From positions 62,001 to 126,000 of the forward strand of contig JAHEBQ010000010.1 of assembly GCA_024642205.1 (NCBI GenBank): DNA of 64,000 bases, given 5' to 3'. A program made the translations under genes and the position numbers. This document shows positions 1 to 9,819 of the stretch, piece after piece. How positions within the stretch are numbered: position 1 is the first letter of the stretch; each line of letters starts with the position of its first letter. The notes under the pieces are model-generated. The model had not been told where the DNA came from and made no database searches. It worked only from the letters and a program-made list of their open reading frames with translations. The stretch is from Planctomycetaceae bacterium. GTDB lineage: Bacteria; Planctomycetota; Planctomycetia; Pirellulales; Pirellulaceae.

Positions 1-389
1 GTGGCGTCATGCTGATCGGCAGCGAGGTCAAAAGTCTCCGCGATGGAAATATCTCGCTGAACGAAGCCTACGTACGAGTTGAGAAGAAAGAGCTGTGGCT
101 TATCGGGGCGGACATCGCGGAATACCGTCAAGCCAGTTTCTGGAACCACAAACCCAAACGTGCTCGCAAATTGCTGGTCCATCGGCGAGAGCTGGACAAA
201 CTTTCGGCCAAAGCATTTGAAAAAGGCCTGACGCTGGTGCCACTGCGAATGTACTTCAATTCACGTGGAATCGTAAAAGTGACCGTCGCGGTCGGCCGCG
301 GAAAAAACCTTCATGATAAACGCCAAACATTAAAAGACGCCGATAACAAACGGCGTCTGAACCGCGAGATGCGAGACCGAGGCAGGTGA
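1..389 (+). CDS. smpB: SsrA-binding protein SmpB (5' partial)
   Basis: SmpB binds tmRNA and brings it to stalled ribosomes for trans-translation. The reading frame is open to the left edge (it enters at base 3) and reads G-V-M-L-I-G-S-E-V-K-S-L, the conserved strand of the SmpB OB fold. The ATG at base 9 is therefore internal, and roughly the first 25-30 residues lie outside the window. Downstream, K-R-A-R-K-L-L-V-H-R-R-E-L is the family signature, and the basic C-terminus ending R-E-M-R-D-R-G-R is the tail that enters the mRNA channel. No tmRNA gene is visible in the bases that follow. Confidence 0.95.
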   Translation, partial: GVMLIGSEVKSLRDGNISLNEAYVRVEKKELWLIGADIAEYRQASFWNHKPKRARKLLVHRRELDKLSAKAFEKGLTLVPLRMYFNSRGIVKVTVAVGRGKNLHDKRQTLKDADNKRRLNREMRDRGR

Positions 390-516
390 CCAGCTCAGTC
401 ATCCATTCCCCAGGACCCCGGCCTTCAACCGAGACCGGAGTTGATTTCCAGAATTCTGGGGAACCGCCGAACTAACTCGGGCGACTCGCCCGATTTATTT
501 TGGCGACCCGCCCGAA

Positions 517-1044
517 TTACTTGTCACCCTTGGCGTCGTCATCATCGCCTTCGTCGTCGTCATCATCCTCGTGATCATCGTCGTCACCTTCCTGGTGTTG
601 ATCACCGTGGTCATGATCGTCGTCGACATCCTGTTTGAGCTTGCAGCAAATTGGTGAACCTTTGGCCAAGCCGCACTTTTCACAGGTAACATTGCTTTCC
701 GCACAGCAATCCTCGGTCCCTTTAAGAAAACCACATTTCTTACAGTAGATTCCGCGTTCGGCCGGCTTGACGCCGGTGCAACACAGCGGAGTTCCTGCTT
801 GCATCCCACATTTTTCACATTTTTCCATTTTGCAACAATCAAGACATCGCGCACAACAACCGCATTTGGCGCATAAATCATCCTTTCGAACCACTTTCGT
901 TTTCGCCGCAATGGAAGCGGCTTCGGAAGTCATGTCGGACAACGATTTTCCGTTATTTTGACTCGCGGTCTTTTCGTATTGATCGCATCCCAGGAAAACG
1001 CAGCACATGAGAGTTGCCGCAAACAGGGTCGTAAATGTCTTCAT
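517..1044 (-). CDS. Cys-rich, Asp/His-tailed putative metal-binding lipoprotein
   Basis: This 175-residue protein is unrecognised by name. It starts with a signal peptide ending L-G-C-D (lipobox Cys20), so it should be a lipoprotein. A mid region carries one degenerate and three regular copies of a C-x-K-C-G-x3-G-x2-C-C motif (CEKCGMQAGTPLCC, CKKCGFLKGTEDCC, CEKCGLAKGSPICC), preceded by CAKCGCCARCLDCC. The last ~37 residues are nearly all Asp, Glu and His. Both parts suggest binding of soft and hard divalent metals. The start at 1044 was chosen over an upstream frame because it begins the signal peptide and follows GGTGGAGA at good spacing. It diverges from the ABC transporter operon at 1286, which suggests a shared task. 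Confidence 0.82.
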   Translation of the reverse strand: MKTFTTLFAATLMCCVFLGCDQYEKTASQNNGKSLSDMTSEAASIAAKTKVVRKDDLCAKCGCCARCLDCCKMEKCEKCGMQAGTPLCCTGVKPAERGIYCKKCGFLKGTEDCCAESNVTCEKCGLAKGSPICCKLKQDVDDDHDHGDQHQEGDDDDHEDDDDDEGDDDDAKGDK

Positions 1045-1285
1045 TATCGATCTCCACCTTCGTGAAATTGAGAAAGTCCAGTCGCGCCAGATGCCGGGCC
1101 AGCTACATCGCCCATTGTCGCATTGAACCAGTCGGTTGCAAGTGTCTACCCTTTTTGTTCTCAATCACACCAAAAACCGATTGTGAACCACGCACCGGTT
1201 CTGGTCGTAGGAGCAATTCCAGATTACGCTTTGCGTCTGTACGATCAATTCCCAGTCTCACCCATTCGGCCGACTCCCGTTAGCG
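1045..1285. promoter_or_regulatory. divergent intergenic region, lipoprotein / ABC operon
   Basis: These 241 bases separate the minus-strand Cys-rich lipoprotein from the plus-strand ABC transporter operon and must hold both promoters. I do not see a convincing Zur or Fur palindrome or a clear -35/-10 pair. Confidence 0.4.
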
Positions 1286-1969
1286 ATGCTTAAGCTGGAA
1301 AACATCAAGAAAAGCTTTCTCCAGCCCGACAAGAAACGGGTTCCGATTCTGGATATCCCGACCTTTGAGATCGGCGCCGGTGAGCAGGTCGTCTTGATTG
1401 GCCCCAGTGGATGTGGCAAAACGACAATGTTGCACACCATCGCTGGAATTACCCAGCCCGATTCTGGCAACGTCTTTCTGGACCACGTGGAACTGACACG
1501 ATACTCGGAAGCTGCCCGCGATCGAATCCGCGCCGACAAACTGGGCTACGTCTTCCAGACGTTCAATCTGCTACCGGGATTCTCGGCCTACGAAAACGTG
1601 ATGCTCGGAATGACATTTGCGAGCAAGAAGAAATCCCCCGAACGCGCCCGCAAGCTTCTGGATCAAGTCGGACTCAGCCACCGCTTGCATAACAAACCAA
1701 ATCAACTTTCCGTTGGCGAACAACAACGGGTCGCCGTGGCCCGCGCGCTGGCCAACCGGCCTGCCCTGCTCCTGGCCGATGAGCCAACCGCCAATGTCGA
1801 CCCGGGCAATCAACAACAGATTGTGGACCTGATCAAGGCCAGCTGCCGATCCGAAAACATTGCGCTCCTGATTGTGACACACTCGATGGAAGTCGCGGAA
1901 CAATTTGAACGAGTGGATCGACTTGACGAACTCAATCTTGTCGTCAGTCATGCGAAAGCCGCGTCCTAG
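1286..1969 (+). CDS. ABC transporter ATP-binding protein (LolD/MacB type)
   Basis: A 227-residue ATPase of an inner-membrane ABC complex. Walker A GPSGCGKT is at 39-46, the Q-loop Gln at 91, the signature LSVGE at 141-145, Walker B LLLADE at 161-166 and the H-loop His at 199, so all catalytic elements are present. Length and sequence fit the LolD/MacB/FtsE subclass, which powers mechanotransmission or extraction of lipoproteins rather than substrate import through a channel. The next gene, 67 bases on, is a matching FtsX/MacB-type permease. Substrate cannot be read from the sequence; the DUF3299 genes downstream point towards metal or envelope work. Confidence 0.93.
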   Translation: MLKLENIKKSFLQPDKKRVPILDIPTFEIGAGEQVVLIGPSGCGKTTMLHTIAGITQPDSGNVFLDHVELTRYSEAARDRIRADKLGYVFQTFNLLPGFSAYENVMLGMTFASKKKSPERARKLLDQVGLSHRLHNKPNQLSVGEQQRVAVARALANRPALLLADEPTANVDPGNQQQIVDLIKASCRSENIALLIVTHSMEVAEQFERVDRLDELNLVVSHAKAAS

Positions 1970-2036
1970 AGAATCCCAATCCTGAACTCCTGATAATGAC
2001 AGCCTGTCATCGACCGAACCAAGACCTGGCCCGATC

Positions 2037-3842
2037 ATGAATGTATTCAAAATCGCCTGGCGAAGCATCCAACATCGAGGATTCGGCTCAATGCTGACCA
2101 TCCTCTCTATGGCATTGGGTGTAATGATGGTGGTCGCGGTGCTCACCATTCACGGGGTTGTTTCGGAATCGTTCAAAGCCAACAACAGTTTTGGTTACAA
2201 CATTATCGTCGGCGCACGAGGTGGGGGTCTTCAGTTGACGCTCAACTCGGTTTACTACTTGAGCAAACCGGTGGAGAATATTCCCTATGAGTATTATCTC
2301 GCCTTTTGCGACGAATCGACTCGAAACAGCGAACTGAAGAAATCCATTGCCTACACCGCGCAACACCTGATTGCCGAGACATCGACCCTGGTCCCCGCCA
2401 TCCTGCCTGGGGCCTGCGGGCTGGGAGGCGCGATCGCCGATTCACTGGTCGCCGAAGCATTTGACTTTCAACAAGCGGCGGCGATGAAAATCAACCGAAA
2501 AGGGTTGTACAAGCGCTACACGCAAATCGCCGTGCCGCTCTGCCAGGGCGACTATTACGTTGATCCCAAAAACCCGCAGCTACAATTTCGCTGTGTCGGA
2601 ACAACACCCAACTTCTTCACCGACCTGGTTCTTGATATTGACTCTGAGGAAAAGTTTCAGTTCGCTCAGGGCCGATGTTTCGTCGAAAAAAGTGATGAAC
2701 ACGGTTTTTTTGAATGCGTGGTTGGTGCGGTTGTTGCGAAACAGTGCGGTATCCGTCTGGGGGATAAACTCCAGGCAACCCACGGCGATCCCAACAGTAG
2801 TGCCGCACACATCCACGAACAGGACTACACCGTCGTTGGAATTCTCCAACGGACCGGGACACCAAATGATCGCGTGTTGTTTTTGAACATGGAAGGCTTC
2901 TATTTGATGGAAGACCATTCCAAACCGATTGAAAATGATGCCCTCCTCAAAGGCGAACGCGATCCAAACGAAACCGAAATGATTACCGATCCGCTGAGCG
3001 ATGACTTTTTTGAAGATGACTCAAATGAGTCCGTCGAAATCGAGTCCGGTTCGGAAGTGACGAATGTGGATCCCGCCGATCCACCAAACCAACCCGAGCA
3101 GAACTCGAATGTCGCGGAAACGGAGAACCACGCGAATCGGACACGGATCCCGTTGCCGATCGAACAGCGAGAGGTCACATCGATTCTCGTGCGCACGGAT
3201 AGCGAAAACGACCCATTTAACGTGAGTGCGATGATCTTGCCTGCACAGATCGGCGAAGGTGACCTGGAAACGACGCTCGACTGGTCCCCCTACCGTCCCG
3301 AGCGGGCTCAGAAAGCGGCGCAAGCGGTGAACCCCGTGATGGAAGTTTCTTCCCTGTTCCAGTTGTTCGTCGACCCCATTCGCTGGTTACTATTGGCCTT
3401 GACCTCGATGATCTGTATCGTCTCCGCCCTCAGTATTCTCGTCGGGATTTACAATTCCATGAGTCAGCGGCAACATGAAATCGCTGTCATGCGGGCTCTC
3501 GGAGCCAATCGCACGAAAGTCATGCTGATCATTGTCTGCGAGGCATTGTTGCTAGCTCTTGTCGGTGGATTACTTGGCTGGGTGGCCGGACATGGACTTA
3601 ATGTCGCATTGGGCCCGATCGTCGAAGCCCGAACCGGGGTCCCTATGAGCTTTTTCAATTTTGCACCAGCGATTCCACTAACCGACATCACCGCCGGATT
3701 GATCCCCCGGCGGATTGGCGCATTCGGTGTTTCGCCTGAATTCCTGATCATCCCGGGCTTGATGATCCTGGCAGTCATCGTCGGAATCTACCCCGCGATC
3801 TCCGCCTATCGTACCGATGTTTCCAAGTCGCTGGGTAAATAG
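2037..3842 (+). CDS. ABC transporter permease, FtsX/MacB-type
   Basis: A 601-residue permease with the classic layout of one N-terminal membrane helix (about 18-40), a large periplasmic core (about 45-440), and three C-terminal helices (about 447-472, 494-520 and 569-590). The motif E-I-A-V-M-R-A-L-G-A-N-R after the second helix is the FtsX-domain coupling segment that contacts the ATPase. The periplasmic part carries an unusual acidic, Asn/Pro-rich stretch at about 308-365 that looks like a flexible insertion. It partners the ATPase at 1286. The whole resembles the permease of Zur-regulated loci in gammaproteobacteria that also contain DUF3299, but this is by analogy. Confidence 0.9.
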   Translation: MNVFKIAWRSIQHRGFGSMLTILSMALGVMMVVAVLTIHGVVSESFKANNSFGYNIIVGARGGGLQLTLNSVYYLSKPVENIPYEYYLAFCDESTRNSELKKSIAYTAQHLIAETSTLVPAILPGACGLGGAIADSLVAEAFDFQQAAAMKINRKGLYKRYTQIAVPLCQGDYYVDPKNPQLQFRCVGTTPNFFTDLVLDIDSEEKFQFAQGRCFVEKSDEHGFFECVVGAVVAKQCGIRLGDKLQATHGDPNSSAAHIHEQDYTVVGILQRTGTPNDRVLFLNMEGFYLMEDHSKPIENDALLKGERDPNETEMITDPLSDDFFEDDSNESVEIESGSEVTNVDPADPPNQPEQNSNVAETENHANRTRIPLPIEQREVTSILVRTDSENDPFNVSAMILPAQIGEGDLETTLDWSPYRPERAQKAAQAVNPVMEVSSLFQLFVDPIRWLLLALTSMICIVSALSILVGIYNSMSQRQHEIAVMRALGANRTKVMLIIVCEALLLALVGGLLGWVAGHGLNVALGPIVEARTGVPMSFFNFAPAIPLTDITAGLIPRRIGAFGVSPEFLIIPGLMILAVIVGIYPAISAYRTDVSKSLGK

Positions 3843-4073
3843 CCCAAACCAGCTGACAACTTGATTTTGATGCTCTTTTTTCACTGAAATCCCAAGTTCT
3901 TGACGATAGCTCATTTCCTTTTATTGGCCCAAACAGATAACATGTGGACAGCCAATACGTCGCCCCGTTTGGCAGTTCGCTGCCAATGTGTTTGCTTTGA
4001 TCGACCTCCGCTGAACCCCACCGTTGATCATCGACGGATAGACCCAATTCAATTCTTAAAGAGACAAACCAAG

Positions 4074-5738
4074 ATGTTTCGCGCCATCCATTCAATTGCG
4101 ATACTCAGTGCATCGATCGTGGCTTGTATCGCAACATCCGTCGTCACTGCCAATGAGACCGTTGGGTCCACCAACGCCTGCCCTTTTTGCTCAGCCATTT
4201 CACTGACGTTTTCTGAGCAATTGGGATCCAACGACATTGCTGTTGTGGCCAAACTGGTTGAGATTCCCCCGCCCAGTAACGACCCGAATGCCGATTTCCC
4301 GAAAGCCACATTCGAAGTCATGCAAATTCTCAAAGGCGACAAGTTTGTCGCCGAGGGAATGACGTTCAAGACGCAATTGGTCGGAAACTACCCTCAAGGC
4401 CAAAAATTCCTGGTCATGGGTGTTGACCCACCCAAAGTCGCGTGGACGACGCCCATGAAAGCATCCGACCGCGTGTTCAACTACCTGAATGAGATTCAAA
4501 AACTTCCTGAGAACGGCGCGGAGCGGCTGGCCTACTTCCAAAACTATTTTGAGGACAAGGAATCAGTCCTGGCGTTTGACGCGTATGATGAATTTGCGCG
4601 GGCTCCCTATCAGGACCTGCTCGCACTCAAAGATCAGATGGACCGCGAAAAGCTCTTGGGATGGATCGAAAACCCCGAAACTTCTGTCTCCCGCAGACGA
4701 TTGTATTTCACGATGCTGGGTGTTTGCGGCAAAGCAGAAGACACCAAACTGCTTGAGGACCTGATCTCTTCCGGTAACCGCAAGAAACGAGCAGGGCTCG
4801 ACGCCTTGATCGCCTGCTATCTGACACTCAAGGGCGAATCCGGTGTCGACTTGATCGAAAGCACGTTTCTCGCTGACCAGGAAGTCGATTATGTCGATAC
4901 CTTGGCGGCCGTTTCCGCGTTGCGTTTTCATGGTACCGAACTCAAATTGATCTCCAGGCAGCGAATTGTTGCCGCGGTTCGCCAGCTGCTTGATCGGCCA
5001 AAAATGGCCGACATGATCATCCCGGACCTCGCTCGATGGGAAGACTGGTCGGTCATGGAACGTCTGGTCAAAATGTTCAAGGAAGCCGACGCCGATTCGA
5101 ACTGGCTCCGCGTCCCGGTCATTACTTACCTTCGTGCCTGCCCCAAACCGGAAGCCAAGCAATACATCGAGGAACTTCGCAAGATCGATCCGGAATCGGT
5201 CCAACGTGCTGACTTCTTTTTGGGAGTTGGCGACAGCGATGACGATTGGGACGATGCACCAAAAGCGGAAGAACCCAAAAAAGGGGCGATTCCCGAAGGC
5301 AACCAGGAAAAAGCCGGCACGCCGGGTGAAGCTGACAAGCATGTCGTCAAGAAAGTCACTCTTGTTTCCGAAGACCAGGATAAACTTTCGGTGGAGACGT
5401 ATGCGACCCAGGCCGATGCCGACAGCACCAATACGACGGATGTGGGAACCGTCGCCCGGGGCACCACCCCAGTGCCGCCGACCGTCGTGAATGAAAATCT
5501 GGTCGCCCGGCCGAACCCCGCAAGCACAGTATTCGTATCCAATACGGCTGATTCCATGGCCGCCCAGGCGGCTCCGGCTCAAGTTTCCCGATCGGTCACG
5601 TCCTCGGTTCCGGTTGCCGCGACGACACCCGTCAATTTGACCTGGTCAATCATTTTGATTCCGATGGCAGTCTCGGTGGCGATCTTTTTGCTGTTGTGGT
5701 CGGTCGTCAACGGCTGGTTCGAGCGTTTGATTTTTTGA
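4074..5738 (+). CDS. Exported, C-terminally anchored protein with CPFC motif
   Basis: An unnamed 554-residue protein. I start it at the ATG at 4074, where a clean signal peptide (1-26, ending VTA-NE) begins, rather than at 3900. The mature N-terminus has a CPFC motif (36-39). A following beta-rich stretch to about 140 has the F-E-V-x-x-I-L-K-G pattern seen in netrin/TIMP-like OB folds. The middle (about 150-400) is helical and possibly HEAT-like. After about 400 comes a charged, disordered linker rich in Ala/Thr/Pro, then a single membrane helix (about 525-547). Most of the protein should therefore sit outside the cytoplasmic membrane, anchored by its C-terminus. It lies between the ABC permease and the DUF3299 genes in the same direction, and is probably part of that system. 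Confidence 0.8.
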   Translation: MFRAIHSIAILSASIVACIATSVVTANETVGSTNACPFCSAISLTFSEQLGSNDIAVVAKLVEIPPPSNDPNADFPKATFEVMQILKGDKFVAEGMTFKTQLVGNYPQGQKFLVMGVDPPKVAWTTPMKASDRVFNYLNEIQKLPENGAERLAYFQNYFEDKESVLAFDAYDEFARAPYQDLLALKDQMDREKLLGWIENPETSVSRRRLYFTMLGVCGKAEDTKLLEDLISSGNRKKRAGLDALIACYLTLKGESGVDLIESTFLADQEVDYVDTLAAVSALRFHGTELKLISRQRIVAAVRQLLDRPKMADMIIPDLARWEDWSVMERLVKMFKEADADSNWLRVPVITYLRACPKPEAKQYIEELRKIDPESVQRADFFLGVGDSDDDWDDAPKAEEPKKGAIPEGNQEKAGTPGEADKHVVKKVTLVSEDQDKLSVETYATQADADSTNTTDVGTVARGTTPVPPTVVNENLVARPNPASTVFVSNTADSMAAQAAPAQVSRSVTSSVPVAATTPVNLTWSIILIPMAVSVAIFLLLWSVVNGWFERLIF

Positions 5739-5886
5739 ACCGGCGGGAGTTGCTTGAACCAATTGAACGACTGTTTTGAACGGGACCACCGTGACAAACG
5801 GATTTTTACGTTGGGTTGCCGACGAACTTTCTCAGCCAGCGCAATTTGCCTTTTTCATGAACGTTGGTTTGGCTTAGAATTGACCA

Positions 5887-6603
5887 ATGAATCGTGCAAA
5901 CCTTCCAGACTTAAAAGAATCCATGCAAGACAAACTTGCTCCTTCCCAACCGGGCTCCGCTGAGAACGAGTTCGCGTATCGTTCAATCAGCAAAGCATCG
6001 GTCTCTTCGATTATCTTCGCTGTGCTCGGTGCGTTGACCGCATTCCTCGCGCCTCATTTTGTGATCCTGCCTGTACTTGGCTTGGCGTTTGGATGTGTCG
6101 CGGTTGTGAACTTTCGGCGCTTCCCGGAAGAGTTGTCCGGCAAACTGGCTGCCCACGTTGGTATTGCGTTGAGCCTGATCTGTCTGGTCGGGGCCACCGC
6201 CTATCATTCGTATGTTTACAGCACCGAAGTTCCCGACGGATACCGAAGAATTTCCTACGGTGACCTGCGGCCCAACTCGCGAACCCAGCTTCCGTTCTCG
6301 GAAAAGGCCCGTGAATTTGACGGGAACAAGGTTTTCCTCAAGGGTTATGTACGACCGAGCGCCAAACGTCGAAAGCTGAAGAACTTTATCCTCGTCGGAG
6401 ATTTTGGTGATTGCTGTTTTGGTGGAAACCCGAAAATGACGGAAGTCGTCGCAATCAAGATCCTCGGGGACGAGACAATCGATCATGGATATTCTTTGCG
6501 AAAAATCGGCGGAACCTTTCGGTTGAACGAACGTTCAAAACGTACGTCGGACGACGAAGTTCCCGCGGTTTTTTACGAAATCGAAGCCGATCACATCCGA
6601 TAA
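5887..6603 (+). CDS. Membrane-anchored DUF3299 protein (DUF4190-like N-terminus)
   Basis: A 238-residue protein with two parts. Residues 38-110 hold hydrophobic helices of the DUF4190 kind (V-L-G-L-A-F-G). Residues about 120-238 form a DUF3299 domain with the core K-G-Y-V-R-P-S and the motif D-C-C-F-G-G-N-P (CCFG at 176-179). DUF3299 lipoproteins in gammaproteobacteria sit in Zur-controlled ABC loci, as I recall. The Cys pair may bind metal. A second DUF3299 copy follows at 6924, so the operon carries one tethered and one secreted form. An internal Met at residue 13 is an alternative start. Confidence 0.85.
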   Translation: MNRANLPDLKESMQDKLAPSQPGSAENEFAYRSISKASVSSIIFAVLGALTAFLAPHFVILPVLGLAFGCVAVVNFRRFPEELSGKLAAHVGIALSLICLVGATAYHSYVYSTEVPDGYRRISYGDLRPNSRTQLPFSEKAREFDGNKVFLKGYVRPSAKRRKLKNFILVGDFGDCCFGGNPKMTEVVAIKILGDETIDHGYSLRKIGGTFRLNERSKRTSDDEVPAVFYEIEADHIR

Positions 6604-6923
6604 CCAAAAACGCGGATGTGATTCGCGTCCGGTTGTGATAGGCTCAGGTTGATAAACAGATCGTGGTCCGTTTGTCGTGCTTCGTTTCGAGACTGTGAAA
6701 ACATTTGCATCGAAATGGATGCGCAAACGAGGGTGGAGCGCCAGATTGTTGCTTTTTCGCTTCGCCTTGGCACACGGCTATCGCCCGTTCAAATTCCCTC
6801 GGCGAACAACAAGTGATGACCGTGGAACGATCAACCACCGGTCAGCAGGTCGTCAATCGAAGATAATATGGGCGTTGATCATAGCCAACCTGCCGGCAGC
6901 GTATCGTTGGTTGCCTAACTCAC
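6604..6923. other. 320-base spacer without a gene
   Basis: This spacer lies between the two DUF3299 genes. I see no convincing frame, hairpin terminator or regulator site. Its length suggests the second DUF3299 gene may have its own promoter. Confidence 0.4.
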
Positions 6924-7457
6924 ATGAGAACGAAAATGAAAACCTGGATCGTCAGCTGCGCATTGCTGAGTGCTTCACTCCTGTCGTCGGTTACCGTGGG
7001 GCCAGTTTCGGCCCAGGATCCGGACCCGGTTGATTCTGCCAGGACCCAGATCAAAACCGAAGTCCCGGCAAACGAAGAACCTCCCAAGACCTTCGATCTG
7101 ACGTTCGACGATCTCAAGTTCGACATGCAAAAAGGGAGCCCATTTGAACGGTCGCTGTTGACTTCAAAGATCAACGGGTATCACAACAGTACCGTTCGGC
7201 TGCGAGGTTACATTCGGCCCAGTTTCAGCCAGACCGGGCTAACCAAGTTCATTTTCGTCCGTGACAACAAAGAATGCTGTTTTGGCCCAGGTGCTGCCAT
7301 CTACGATTGCGTGCTGGTACGACTTCAGGATGGTTCCAAAACCGATTACACGGTCCGCCCGGTCACCATCGAAGGGAAATTTTCATTGAAAGAATACAAA
7401 GGCCCCGACGGAAACGTCTGGTCCATCTACCGAATGAGTGACGCTGAGGTAAAATAA
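6924..7457 (+). CDS. Secreted DUF3299 protein
   Basis: A 177-residue protein with a signal peptide (1-30, ending VSA-Q; a second Met at residue 5 could also start it), an acidic linker to about 55 and a DUF3299 domain from about 56 to the end. The core repeats that of its neighbour: R-G-Y-I-R-P-S (94-100) and the Cys pair in E-C-C-F-G-P (CCFG at 118-121). No lipobox Cys is seen, so it should be soluble in the periplasm. Paralogous to the C-terminal half of the protein at 5887, it probably arose by duplication. Function is unknown; its likely role is within the metal/envelope ABC cluster. Confidence 0.88.
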   Translation: MRTKMKTWIVSCALLSASLLSSVTVGPVSAQDPDPVDSARTQIKTEVPANEEPPKTFDLTFDDLKFDMQKGSPFERSLLTSKINGYHNSTVRLRGYIRPSFSQTGLTKFIFVRDNKECCFGPGAAIYDCVLVRLQDGSKTDYTVRPVTIEGKFSLKEYKGPDGNVWSIYRMSDAEVK

Positions 7458-7640: not shown

Positions 7641-8831
7641 ATGGCGTTACTGGATTGGGTCAACCGTCGAGTTTTCACGACCGTTCACGGCAACAACCTC
7701 GTTTACAATACCTGTTGGGAAGACCCGCGGCTTGATCGTGTGGCCCTTGAGTTTGGTCCCGATGACAACGTGATGGTAATCACGTCGGCTGGCTGCAATG
7801 CGCTCGACTATGCGCTCGCTGGTCCCAACCAAGTCCATGCGGTCGACATGAACCCTCGGCAAAACGCTCTGCTTGACCTGAAAATGAGCGCGATTCGGCA
7901 GCTTGAATTTGACGACTTCTTCAAGATGTTTGGGGAAGGCCGATTACCCGGCGTCAAAGATGTCTACGAACAAGTGCTGCGGGCCGATCTGCCGGCTTGG
8001 TCGCAGTCGTTCTGGGACAAGAAAATCAACTGGTTCGACAACCGCCGCAAGACGTTCTACTACCGGGGTACGTCCGGAACGATTGCGCGATTGGTCCGAG
8101 CCTACATCGACAACGTGATTCGAGTGCGTCCGCATGTCGATTCATTGCTCAATGCAGAAACCGTCGAAGAACAACGAGAGATCTACGAAAATCACCTGAA
8201 GAAAAAATTCTGGTCCGGACTGATGAAGTTCACCATGAATCGAGACACCACAATGTCGATGCTGGGTGTCCCGAAAGCTCAACGACGCCAGATCGAAACT
8301 CAGTACCAGGGTGGACTCGTCAAGTTCATTCAAGACTGCATGGAGAGCGTTTTTGTCGAGCTCCCGATGAAAGACAACTATTTCTGGCGCGTCTACATCA
8401 ATGGAGCCTATTCCCGCGATTGTTGTCCCGAATACCTGAAGGCCGACAATTTTGAAAAACTCAAAGGCGGAATTGTCGACAACGTTTCCACCCACACCAA
8501 TTCAGTCCAGGGATTCCTGGAAAAACATGACGGCCTGATCTCGCGATACATCTTGCTGGATCACATGGACTGGCTGAGCGATCAGTTTTTTCCCTTGCTG
8601 GAATCAGAATGGCAAGCCATCGTTGATCGAGCCGCCCCGGGAGCCCGGTTGATTTGGCGAAGCGGCGGTCTGCGAACCGATTTTATCGAAGAGGTTCAAG
8701 TCAGTCACAACGGCGAGATTCAAAAGGTCAGCCCGCTGCTCAGCTACAACCGGGAACTCGCAAACCAGCTTCACGAAAAAGATCGCGTTCACACGTATGG
8801 CAGTTTTTACATCGCGGAACTTGGCGCCTAG
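7641..8831 (+). CDS. btaA: BtaA, diacylglycerol 3-amino-3-carboxypropyltransferase
   Basis: BtaA moves the 3-amino-3-carboxypropyl group of S-adenosylmethionine onto diacylglycerol to give diacylglyceryl homoserine, the first step of betaine-lipid (DGTS) synthesis. The 396 residues match the DUF3419 family: N-T-C-W-E-D-P-R-L-D near the start, the SAM-site run T-S-A-G-C-N-A-L-D-Y and D-M-N-P-R-Q, and the conserved C-terminal W-R-S-G-G-L-R. It is followed at 9085 by a methyltransferase that should finish the headgroup. In other bacteria this pathway replaces phospholipids during phosphate starvation. No Pho box is evident upstream. Confidence 0.93.
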   Translation: MALLDWVNRRVFTTVHGNNLVYNTCWEDPRLDRVALEFGPDDNVMVITSAGCNALDYALAGPNQVHAVDMNPRQNALLDLKMSAIRQLEFDDFFKMFGEGRLPGVKDVYEQVLRADLPAWSQSFWDKKINWFDNRRKTFYYRGTSGTIARLVRAYIDNVIRVRPHVDSLLNAETVEEQREIYENHLKKKFWSGLMKFTMNRDTTMSMLGVPKAQRRQIETQYQGGLVKFIQDCMESVFVELPMKDNYFWRVYINGAYSRDCCPEYLKADNFEKLKGGIVDNVSTHTNSVQGFLEKHDGLISRYILLDHMDWLSDQFFPLLESEWQAIVDRAAPGARLIWRSGGLRTDFIEEVQVSHNGEIQKVSPLLSYNRELANQLHEKDRVHTYGSFYIAELGA

Positions 8832-9084
8832 AGCTTGTCACGCATTCCGTGCGCCCACACAACTGGGAGATTGAGGCTCTCGCCGAATCCGCAGCGACCT
8901 GAATCCCGGCAATAGCCCTGCATTCTCGTTAACGCGACTCGTGGGAATTGAACAGAACACTGGAGATGCGACAGCGAACCCGTTCGTTACGACGACTTCG
9001 ATCCCCTACCCTGACTACAATCCCTGGCCCGCCGGACGCCTGTCCGGCAGGCTCCCGTTTGACCCCGATTTGAACCGATCCATC

Positions 9085-9819
9085 ATGGGCTTTTTCTCCG
9101 ACATGAAAATCCTCTACCACATGCTGGTCAAGCCGGTGCGTGGTGACAGCCATGCCGAACGGATGGAAAGTTTCTACGGCGGGCAAGCAGACGCCTACGA
9201 CGATTTCCGCAAACGCCTTCTCAAAGGACGCCGAGAACTGTTTGCCGCAATGCCCAAACCGGACGGCGGCGTCTGGGTCGATATGGGAGGCGGAACCGGG
9301 TCCAACATCGAAAACCTGGCCGGAGACATCGGGAATCTGAAAAAGGTATACGTCGTTGACCTGTCCGATTCGCTTCTGAAAGTCGCGACCGAACGATTCC
9401 GGGCCCGCGGATGGGAAAACGCCGAAGCCATCGCAGCGGATGCGACGAAGTTCCGCCCTCCCGAAGGGCAGGCGGACGTCGTCACGTTTTCCTACTCGTT
9501 GACCATGATCCCTGATTGGTTTGCGGCGATTGAAAATGCGGTGGCGATGCTCAAACCGGGCGGACACATCGGTGTCGTCGATTTCTATGTCGGGCGAAAG
9601 TACCCACCGGAGGGACTAAAACGACATCGCTGGCTCGCTCGCTCATTGTGGCAACCATGGTTCGCGACCGACAACGTGTTCCCTTCTCCGGACCATTTAC
9701 CCTTTCTTCGAAGTCATTTTGATCAGGTTCATCTGGTTGAAGAGCGAAGCCGTATGCCCTACGTACCTCTGTTGCGAACACCCTATTACCAATTCATCGG
9801 CCGCAAAAGAAAATCGTAG
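9085..9819 (+). CDS. btaB: BtaB-like SAM-dependent N-methyltransferase
   Basis: A class I SAM methyltransferase with motif I V-D-M-G-G-G-T-G-S-N, the acidic residue V-V-D-L after the second strand, and motif P-G-G-H-I-G-V-V-D-F-Y. Set just after btaA, it is expected to add three methyls to diacylglyceryl homoserine, giving diacylglyceryl trimethylhomoserine. The frame is open back to a GTG at 8941, but those 48 residues look non-coding and the family N-terminus fits the ATG at 9085, giving 244 residues. There is no strong ribosome binding site at either start. Function rests on context as well as fold. Confidence 0.85.
   Translation: MGFFSDMKILYHMLVKPVRGDSHAERMESFYGGQADAYDDFRKRLLKGRRELFAAMPKPDGGVWVDMGGGTGSNIENLAGDIGNLKKVYVVDLSDSLLKVATERFRARGWENAEAIAADATKFRPPEGQADVVTFSYSLTMIPDWFAAIENAVAMLKPGGHIGVVDFYVGRKYPPEGLKRHRWLARSLWQPWFATDNVFPSPDHLPFLRSHFDQVHLVEERSRMPYVPLLRTPYYQFIGRKRKS

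Follow-up and report, generated by a model that had tools for sequence, protein, structure and literature searches.

The closest described relatives of the locus analyzed here are the PA4063-PA4066 genes of Pseudomonas aeruginosa and the Zrg operons of Vibrio. PA4063-PA4066 are reported to be regulated by Zur and to encode a His-rich zinc protein, a MacB-type ATPase and permease specified by separate genes, and PA4066 (PMC11481552, PMC8561739). In Vibrio, zrgE is the gene of a domain of unknown function (DUF) 3299 protein, and its operon is described as induced upon zinc depletion in V. parahaemolyticus (PMC9817125). A preliminary description of the DNA had pointed to this literature, in agreement with these three papers. 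The DNA in question, hereafter the window, is a stretch of 64,000 nucleotides from a Planctomycetaceae bacterium (contig JAHEBQ010000010.1; family Pirellulaceae, order Pirellulales, class Planctomycetia). Near its start lie genes for an ATP-binding cassette (ABC) ATPase, a permease, an exported protein with a CPFC motif (CPFC protein) and two DUF3299 proteins, which form a real and highly conserved block. Sequence comparisons established the permease and the DUF3299 proteins as homologues of the Zrg/PA4063-PA4066 kind, and the block is a variant of this known zinc-linked kind for which no earlier description was found. It is called a variant and not a strict Zrg member because the DUF2796/ZrgA protein was not found.

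That the ABC pair and DUF3299 are related to PA4063-PA4066 and Zrg, as the preliminary description had proposed, was upheld by a match to a protein of known structure, by matches to Zrg operons and by a permease tree. A profile (A2) made from an alignment of 32 planctomycete DUF3299 sequences matched the PDB entry 4hsp with an E value of 2.1e-14; this entry is PA4066, for which an OB-like fold is reported (PMC8561739). A planctomycete permease query matched 118 plasmid records, and three of the five examined were Zrg operons with DUF2796 and DUF3299 genes, one from Pseudomonas, one from Phaeobacter, where a Fur-family gene precedes the operon, and one from SC52, where DUF3299 is encoded twice. 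The other two were a Thermus record carrying an ABC pair without DUF3299 and an unannotated Rhizobium record in which no DUF3299 was recognised by eye among the open reading frames (ORFs) listed beside the pair. In a tree of 29 permease rows, the three Zrg permeases formed one group (100/100) inside the planctomycete rows, and LolC, LolE and MacB of E. coli fell outside the planctomycete and Zrg rows (92/97); MacB, LolC, Rhizobium and the planctomycete locus L089 had long end branches, leaving fine placement unsure. At the position of His249-Gly250 of the window permease, His-Gly was present in all but one of the 24 permeases from modules and Zrg operons as well as in the Thermus and Rhizobium rows, versus Val-Pro in LolC, Ile-Pro in LolE and Ile-Leu in MacB.

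In its arrangement the block resembles PA4063-PA4066, with an ATPase gene adjacent to a separate gene for a MacB-type permease of the Zrg branch, followed by DUF3299, and it resembles ZrgABCDE of Vibrio, in which permease, ATPase and DUF3299 (ZrgE) share one operon, here with DUF3299 in two copies. Unlike PA4063-PA4066, which combine a DUF2796 His-rich protein with Zur regulation, it carries a predicted NTR-HEAT protein and two DUF3299 proteins with a CCFG motif. It also differs from ZrgABCDE in that ZrgA (PF10986) was without a match in the window genome; ZrgD (DUF2607) was not searched for.

The ABC families of the block (PF00005, MacB_PCD and FtsX) are equally those of LolCDE and MacB, and the best NCBIfam profile for the ATPase is LolD. 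The block could be a machine akin to LolCDE and MacB with a housekeeping role in the envelope. It would then move a periplasmic cargo of lipoproteins, lipids or a peptide and be unrelated to metals in this class, zinc control having been added later in some relatives. The ATPase, however, scored 201.7 bits against a LolD cut-off of 307.75 and so falls short of a LolD equivalog, and the permease scored 51.4 bits against 362.45 for the Lol permease profile. In place of a LolC/LolE pair the block has a single permease gene, which is separate from the ATPase gene, unlike the fused ATPase-permease of a MacAB-TolC exporter, and no second permease match was detected in the window genome at E<=1e-15. 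The permease branches apart from LolC and LolE to group with Zrg, its partner is DUF3299, and relatives show Fur-family, Znu-type and COG0523 neighbours, as described below. The retention of DUF3299 throughout the order, which suggests a constant need, and the paucity of operators both favour a housekeeping role, which we regard as unlikely overall but as the most serious competitor.

All genes named in the preliminary description were present in the arrangement given there, and the conserved neighbourhood that it anticipated among planctomycetes was found. The set was considered more than a chance association because the same gene order recurs in many genomes. A phylum sample comprised 60 loci; it covered 58 genomes out of the 74 with DUF3299 by the Pfam model. 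In this sample a permease gene lay within 2.5 kb of DUF3299 on the same strand in 47 and an adjoining ATPase gene was also present in 44; the remaining 13 loci include short contigs. Among 40 further loci from the order, drawn from A2 DUF3299 matches plus one permease match, 28 met the same requirement, and in another three (L143, L150, L152) the permease gene lies beyond two CPFC genes. A CPFC gene was present in 35 of these 40 loci and tandem DUF3299 in 35. The arrangement is kept within the order, and a second family of the class has it too, there with the CPFC gene moved downstream. In nine genomes the DUF3299 block examined had no ABC pair beside it; all nine had a permease elsewhere, so that the components co-occur in a genome even without linkage. 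A third sample comprised the best 80 loci of a longer list of relatives ranked by permease match. Gene calls in many of the other loci are mechanical ORFs. The nearest among these 80 had permease segments 71, 70, 61 and 56% identical to that of the window, the last from Mariniblastus, and most of their record titles read Pirellulaceae, Pirellulales or Planctomycetaceae.

The two DUF3299 proteins of the window scored barely over the 22-bit cut-off of PF11736, with 24.1 bits for the upstream copy and 23.5 bits for the downstream one. Neither the Pfam model nor profile A2 revealed a third DUF3299 in the window genome. The doubling pointed out in the preliminary description is thus real, and it extends to most order genomes with DUF3299, which have two matches; members of one family (f2) mostly have one. 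It is not restricted to planctomycetes, since the tandem recurs in the alphaproteobacterial Zrg operon of SC52. By profile A2, which includes sequences from some of the genomes then counted with it, DUF3299 was detected in 231 of the 246 order genomes, or in 175 of 184 when only good assemblies are counted; in the phylum it was detected in 111 of 294 genomes with A2 and in 74 with the Pfam model. A CCFG or CCWG motif was found in 30 of the 32 A2 proteins and CCLFG or CCGFG in the other two; PA4066 has CIHVPPP at this position. Two DUF3299 copies, in L062 (genome G116) and L004 (G223), reached much higher Pfam scores, of 117 and 112 bits, respectively. The L062 copy was the best match of proteobacterial DUF3299 queries, no ABC pair was found beside it, and it is perhaps a separate acquisition.

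Sequence and model of the CPFC protein were compared with the His-rich proteins that accompany other systems. It carries ACPFC near the presumed mature N-terminus, and in an alignment of 15 CPFC sequences (A1) the A-C-P residues were invariant and the second Cys nearly so. No Pfam family exceeded its cut-off in the window copy; HEAT_2 did in the copy of a relative (L049). The predicted structure comprises a small barrel, a helical repeat region, a C-terminal membrane helix and a low-confidence stretch at residues 386-521, with block means of the predicted local distance difference test of 75-94 over residues 31-130. Foldseek searches with this model returned HEAT-type repeat proteins and, independently, NTR domains with E values of 0.009-0.019: PCOLCE1 (1uap, 8.7e-3), agrin (1pxu, 1.2e-2, and 1jc7, 1.9e-2; titled as related to N-TIMP-1) and complement C3c (2a74), with a probability of 1.00 for 1uap, 1pxu and 1jc7. 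As the output gives no query range, we infer that the NTR matches correspond to the N-terminal barrel; no sequence-profile match of the CPFC protein to an NTR chain was obtained. The CPFC protein is the additional member in the window's class. Its structural model tentatively predicts an NTR/TIMP-like domain joined to HEAT repeats, in a protein that would stand where the His-rich protein of other systems is found and would represent a novel type of partner.

The operons of other planctomycete classes include or adjoin genes of a new family of His-rich lipoproteins, found in 18 of the 60 phylum loci and mostly encoded between permease and DUF3299 (L060, L061, L063, L064, L067, L071-L073, L075, L082, L084, L087, L088, L090, L092, L096, L104, L107), but absent from the 10 Planctomycetia loci and from the 40 order loci. 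Its model is a beta sandwich with weak Foldseek matches of Ig/FN3 type, none at E<=0.001. Eight members were scanned without yielding any confident Pfam family beyond one marginal match to ZrgA, in L082, which reached 28.0 bits against a cut-off of 27.4 over a best stretch (18-63) that contains the His-rich run. The genome of L082 (G110) is absent from the 11 genome-wide matches to PF10986, indicating that this model is at its limit here. In the phylum, PF10986 had matches at E<=0.001 in 11 of 294 genomes and over the cut-off in one of 294, where it lay more than 1 Mb from the DUF3299 gene. PA4063 is described as ferredoxin-like (PMC8561739) and no PA4063-like chain in the PDB was found with a profile of the lipoprotein family. 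Given the single marginal match among eight and a beta-sandwich model as opposed to a ferredoxin-like PA4063, its candidacy as a ZrgA homologue was unsupported.

The regions upstream of the ATPase gene contained, in several lineages, a 15-base palindrome, TGCAAnTnAnTTGCA, of 7-1-7 form. This form is typical of operators of the Fur family. The box was scored over 12 positions and taken as present at 10/12 or above. It was present in 17 of 38 Planctomycetia regions, the same ones from which its consensus was drawn, representing about five lineages with 8 of the 17 from one genus. The remaining loci (34 from other classes and L054, in which the ATPase is not beside DUF3299) had it in 2 of 35, with a mean score of 7.3 versus 7.0 in shuffles. 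Perfect boxes numbered 48 in 60 genomes of the family versus 11 for the reversed pattern, which differs in dinucleotides and does not make this a strict test. When one mismatch was allowed, the box was barely or not enriched in some genomes (6 versus 10 in G394, 31 versus 25 in G048, 29 versus 25 in G069). Five of 30 box loci read (L160, L161, L167, L175, L181) lay beside COG0523 or small His-rich genes, and many sites in the loci read fell within ORFs or next to unrelated genes.

A review counts COG0523 GTPases among the targets of Zur (PMC6103462). Boxes preceded COG0523 genes in three lineages: immediately in L208, where a DUF1826 gene follows, and in L209, and across a small intervening gene in one genus (g3). 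In L202, L203 and L204 two boxes about 45 bases apart precede a COG0523 gene, and L202 and L203 also encode exported proteins that are small and His-rich, together with one that bears a CWCWGRD motif; from their sequence, these loci are a candidate planctomycete zinc regulon. In two loci with the homologous module (L071, L082), a Fur-family gene is divergent from the ATPase gene, with an ABC-3 permease gene (PF00950, Znu type) adjoining. A second module copy (L305, on the 17.6 kb contig 129 of G302) is situated between a Fur-family gene and COG0523 genes, the contig having two Fur-family and two COG0523 genes in all. Ahead of its ATPase gene, this zinc-type island also has a reading frame that resembles a lipoprotein and carries a DCPFC motif. 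In the window genome, the Fur and cobW families each gave two matches. No box was found near these genes, the best being 10/12 about 1.2 kb from a Fur-family gene (L216), and the best in the first 9 kb of the window was only 9/12. On contig 92 of this genome (L215), a Fur-family gene and a gene for a His-rich lipoprotein converge, which marks a candidate locus for metal sensing. The response to zinc suggested in the preliminary description is thus supported by genomic signs in some relatives, namely the box and the Fur, Znu and COG0523 neighbours, and not by the window's own promoter.

On balance we lean towards the five genes at 1286-7457 being, as a whole, a planctomycete ABC system of the Zrg/PA4063-PA4066 kind that aids zinc supply. 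Several observations weigh against this view. PF10986 had no match in the window genome. The window promoter has no box, its best score being 8/12 (p 0.55), although the box is the consensus of relatives and another operator sequence is possible. Among those of the best 80 relatives whose ATPase upstream region was read, only 2 of 69 had a box of at least 10/12, leaving 67 without, and the consensus was, as stated, derived from the regions in which it was counted. Fur-family genes occurred near the module in only 5 of 180 loci scanned, from four genomes. That the order retains the system almost universally would also suit a housekeeping function in the envelope. Finally, the cargo is not agreed even for the Pseudomonas system, for which pyochelin-cobalt export has been proposed (PMC11481552).

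This last proposal, made for the pair PA4064/PA4065, lends some credit to the block being an exporter of a small metal-binding molecule, either a metallophore or its metal complex. Inspection by eye of the ORF lists of 19 loci revealed no gene for a MacA-type adaptor or for metallophore synthesis, which is weak evidence against that idea, as no family search was made beside the block or genome-wide; we consider the idea improbable. The five genes of the block likewise include no MacA-type adaptor, as seen without a family search for one.

Returning to the zinc-supply system, a working scheme can be drawn by analogy with MacB. Two ATPases and two permeases would assemble into a split MacB-type machine in which ATP use in the cytoplasm moves a periplasmic domain, and metal ions would not themselves cross the membrane by way of it. 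As periplasmic partners, the CPFC protein and the two DUF3299 proteins would present or receive the cargo, which may be zinc itself or else a molecule or protein that binds zinc. The conserved permease histidine might, with some uncertainty, touch this cargo. Such a machine would help the cell to keep zinc flowing under scarcity. In the lineage of the window its expression is not visibly under the Zur-like operator of relatives. The Cys-rich lipoprotein encoded beside the block is taken as a separate, inserted element that may serve as a metal buffer. A bolder proposal, which we put forward tentatively and hold rather unlikely in its full extent, is that Planctomycetia have an ancestral and near-universal zinc-mobilising machine of MacB type. 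There the TIMP/NTR-like protein, built on a HEAT scaffold and bearing ACPFC at its N-terminus, would take the metal-ligand part played by His-rich proteins in other planctomycete classes and in proteobacteria, and the machine would act on a metal-bound periplasmic cargo through the nearly invariant permease histidine and the OB-fold CCFG pair.

Two other zinc systems bear comparison. The ZnuABC importer has a permease of the ABC-3 class as opposed to the MacB/FtsX type of the block, the two being linked by the PF00950 permease and Fur-family genes beside the module in L071 and L082. ZepA, known from cyanobacteria and from representatives of the Planctomycetes-Verrucomicrobia-Chlamydiae (PVC) superphylum, resembles the block in its Zur-linked zinc handling and differs in being described as an exoprotein with a PEP-CTERM domain (PMC10957091). 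The words 'permease', 'MacB' and 'FtsX' are absent from the main text of that paper (PMC10957091).

The coordinates of the block and of its neighbours are given in Table 1. The Cys-rich lipoprotein was judged to be a separate insertion in this lineage and not part of the set. It has 175 residues, a lipobox (LGC), an acidic Asp-rich tail, 22 Cys and 4 His; the label Cys/His-rich given to it in the preliminary description is therefore apt for Cys and not for His. Homologues were found in 10 of 196 genomes of the order, the window genome included. Together they make up a Pirellulales family (the window protein and L034-L042) whose members share CxxCG...CC...CxxC...CC repeats, in several cases end in an acidic tail, and have varied neighbours; it is possibly a metallothionein-like metal buffer of the envelope.

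Table 1. Features in the first 10 kb of the window.
Feature	Coordinates	Strand	Basis or remark
smpB	9-389	+	window starts within the gene; named from sequence, no family search
terminator-like hairpin	477-493		GC-rich
Cys-rich lipoprotein	517-1044	-	judged outside the system, lineage-specific neighbour
ABC ATPase, LolD/MacB type	1286-1969	+	PF00005; best NCBIfam profile LolD, under its cut-off
MacB/FtsX-type permease, acidic loop insertion, His249-Gly250 signature	2037-3842	+	MacB_PCD and FtsX over cut-off
CPFC protein, exported	4074-5738	+	alignment A1, structure model, Foldseek
DUF3299 protein a, CCFG motif	5887-6603	+	PF11736 over cut-off; hydrophobic N-terminal segments read from sequence
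DUF3299 protein b, CCFG motif	6924-7457	+	PF11736 over cut-off; signal-peptide-like N-terminus read from sequence
DUF3419 protein and methyltransferase	7641-9819	+	PF11899, 413 bits

The lipoprotein was considered a lineage insertion, and not a substitute for the His-rich partner as the preliminary description had it, because of a neighbour survey of relatives and carriers. Within the stretch examined it was found at the locus in none of the 80 relatives listed, even at an E value of 10; 71 of these loci have a plus-strand ATPase gene and 58 at least 1 kb of sequence upstream of it. smpB was detected in 38 of the 80, and in the nearest relatives listed (the nearest with the 71% permease segment) it is followed directly by the ATPase gene after a gap of about 200 bases. 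In the nine other genomes that carry the lipoprotein it was never seen beside the module, being on another contig in eight, all drafts in which separate contigs alone do not exclude adjacency, and about 0.3 Mb from the module in the closed genome G299. Several of the lipoprotein contigs have other genes flanking it on both sides. In G457, where a lipA-like gene is beside the lipoprotein gene, both this gene and the module genes are near contig ends and adjacency is possible. As a component of the system the lipoprotein was rejected on this evidence from 80 listed relatives and nine carriers. Its divergent position beside the ATPase and a composition like that of metal ligands would suit a metal-binding component replacing ZrgA, a role that the survey makes very improbable indeed; it could survive as a species-specific addition.

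Elsewhere around the block, a scan of the window for promoters and terminators gave a count no higher than in shuffles. Sites like the hairpin between smpB and the convergent lipoprotein gene do not exceed, in this region, their frequency in shuffles. Directly downstream of the block, the DUF3419 protein, of the BtaA family, and the methyltransferase look like a pair for betaine-lipid synthesis.

The view that the set appears undescribed agreed with the titles and abstract openings surveyed: among the papers surveyed on DUF3299, on planctomycetes with Zur and on planctomycetes with MacB and zinc, none was found to give an account of it, those on DUF3299 include none on planctomycetes by title, and neither a Zur operator nor a zinc regulon of planctomycetes was found described there. 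To the knowledge of Zrg, PA4063-PA4066 and DUF3299, these results add a version that is near-universal in an order and has different partners, which separates a shared core from an exchangeable part. The shared core consists of the ATPase, a permease with one nearly invariant histidine, and DUF3299 with a CCFG or CIH motif. The analysis also offers planctomycetes a candidate operator for Zur, with a candidate zinc regulon, and, as predicted from the structural model, a bacterial protein resembling a TIMP/NTR domain fused to HEAT repeats.

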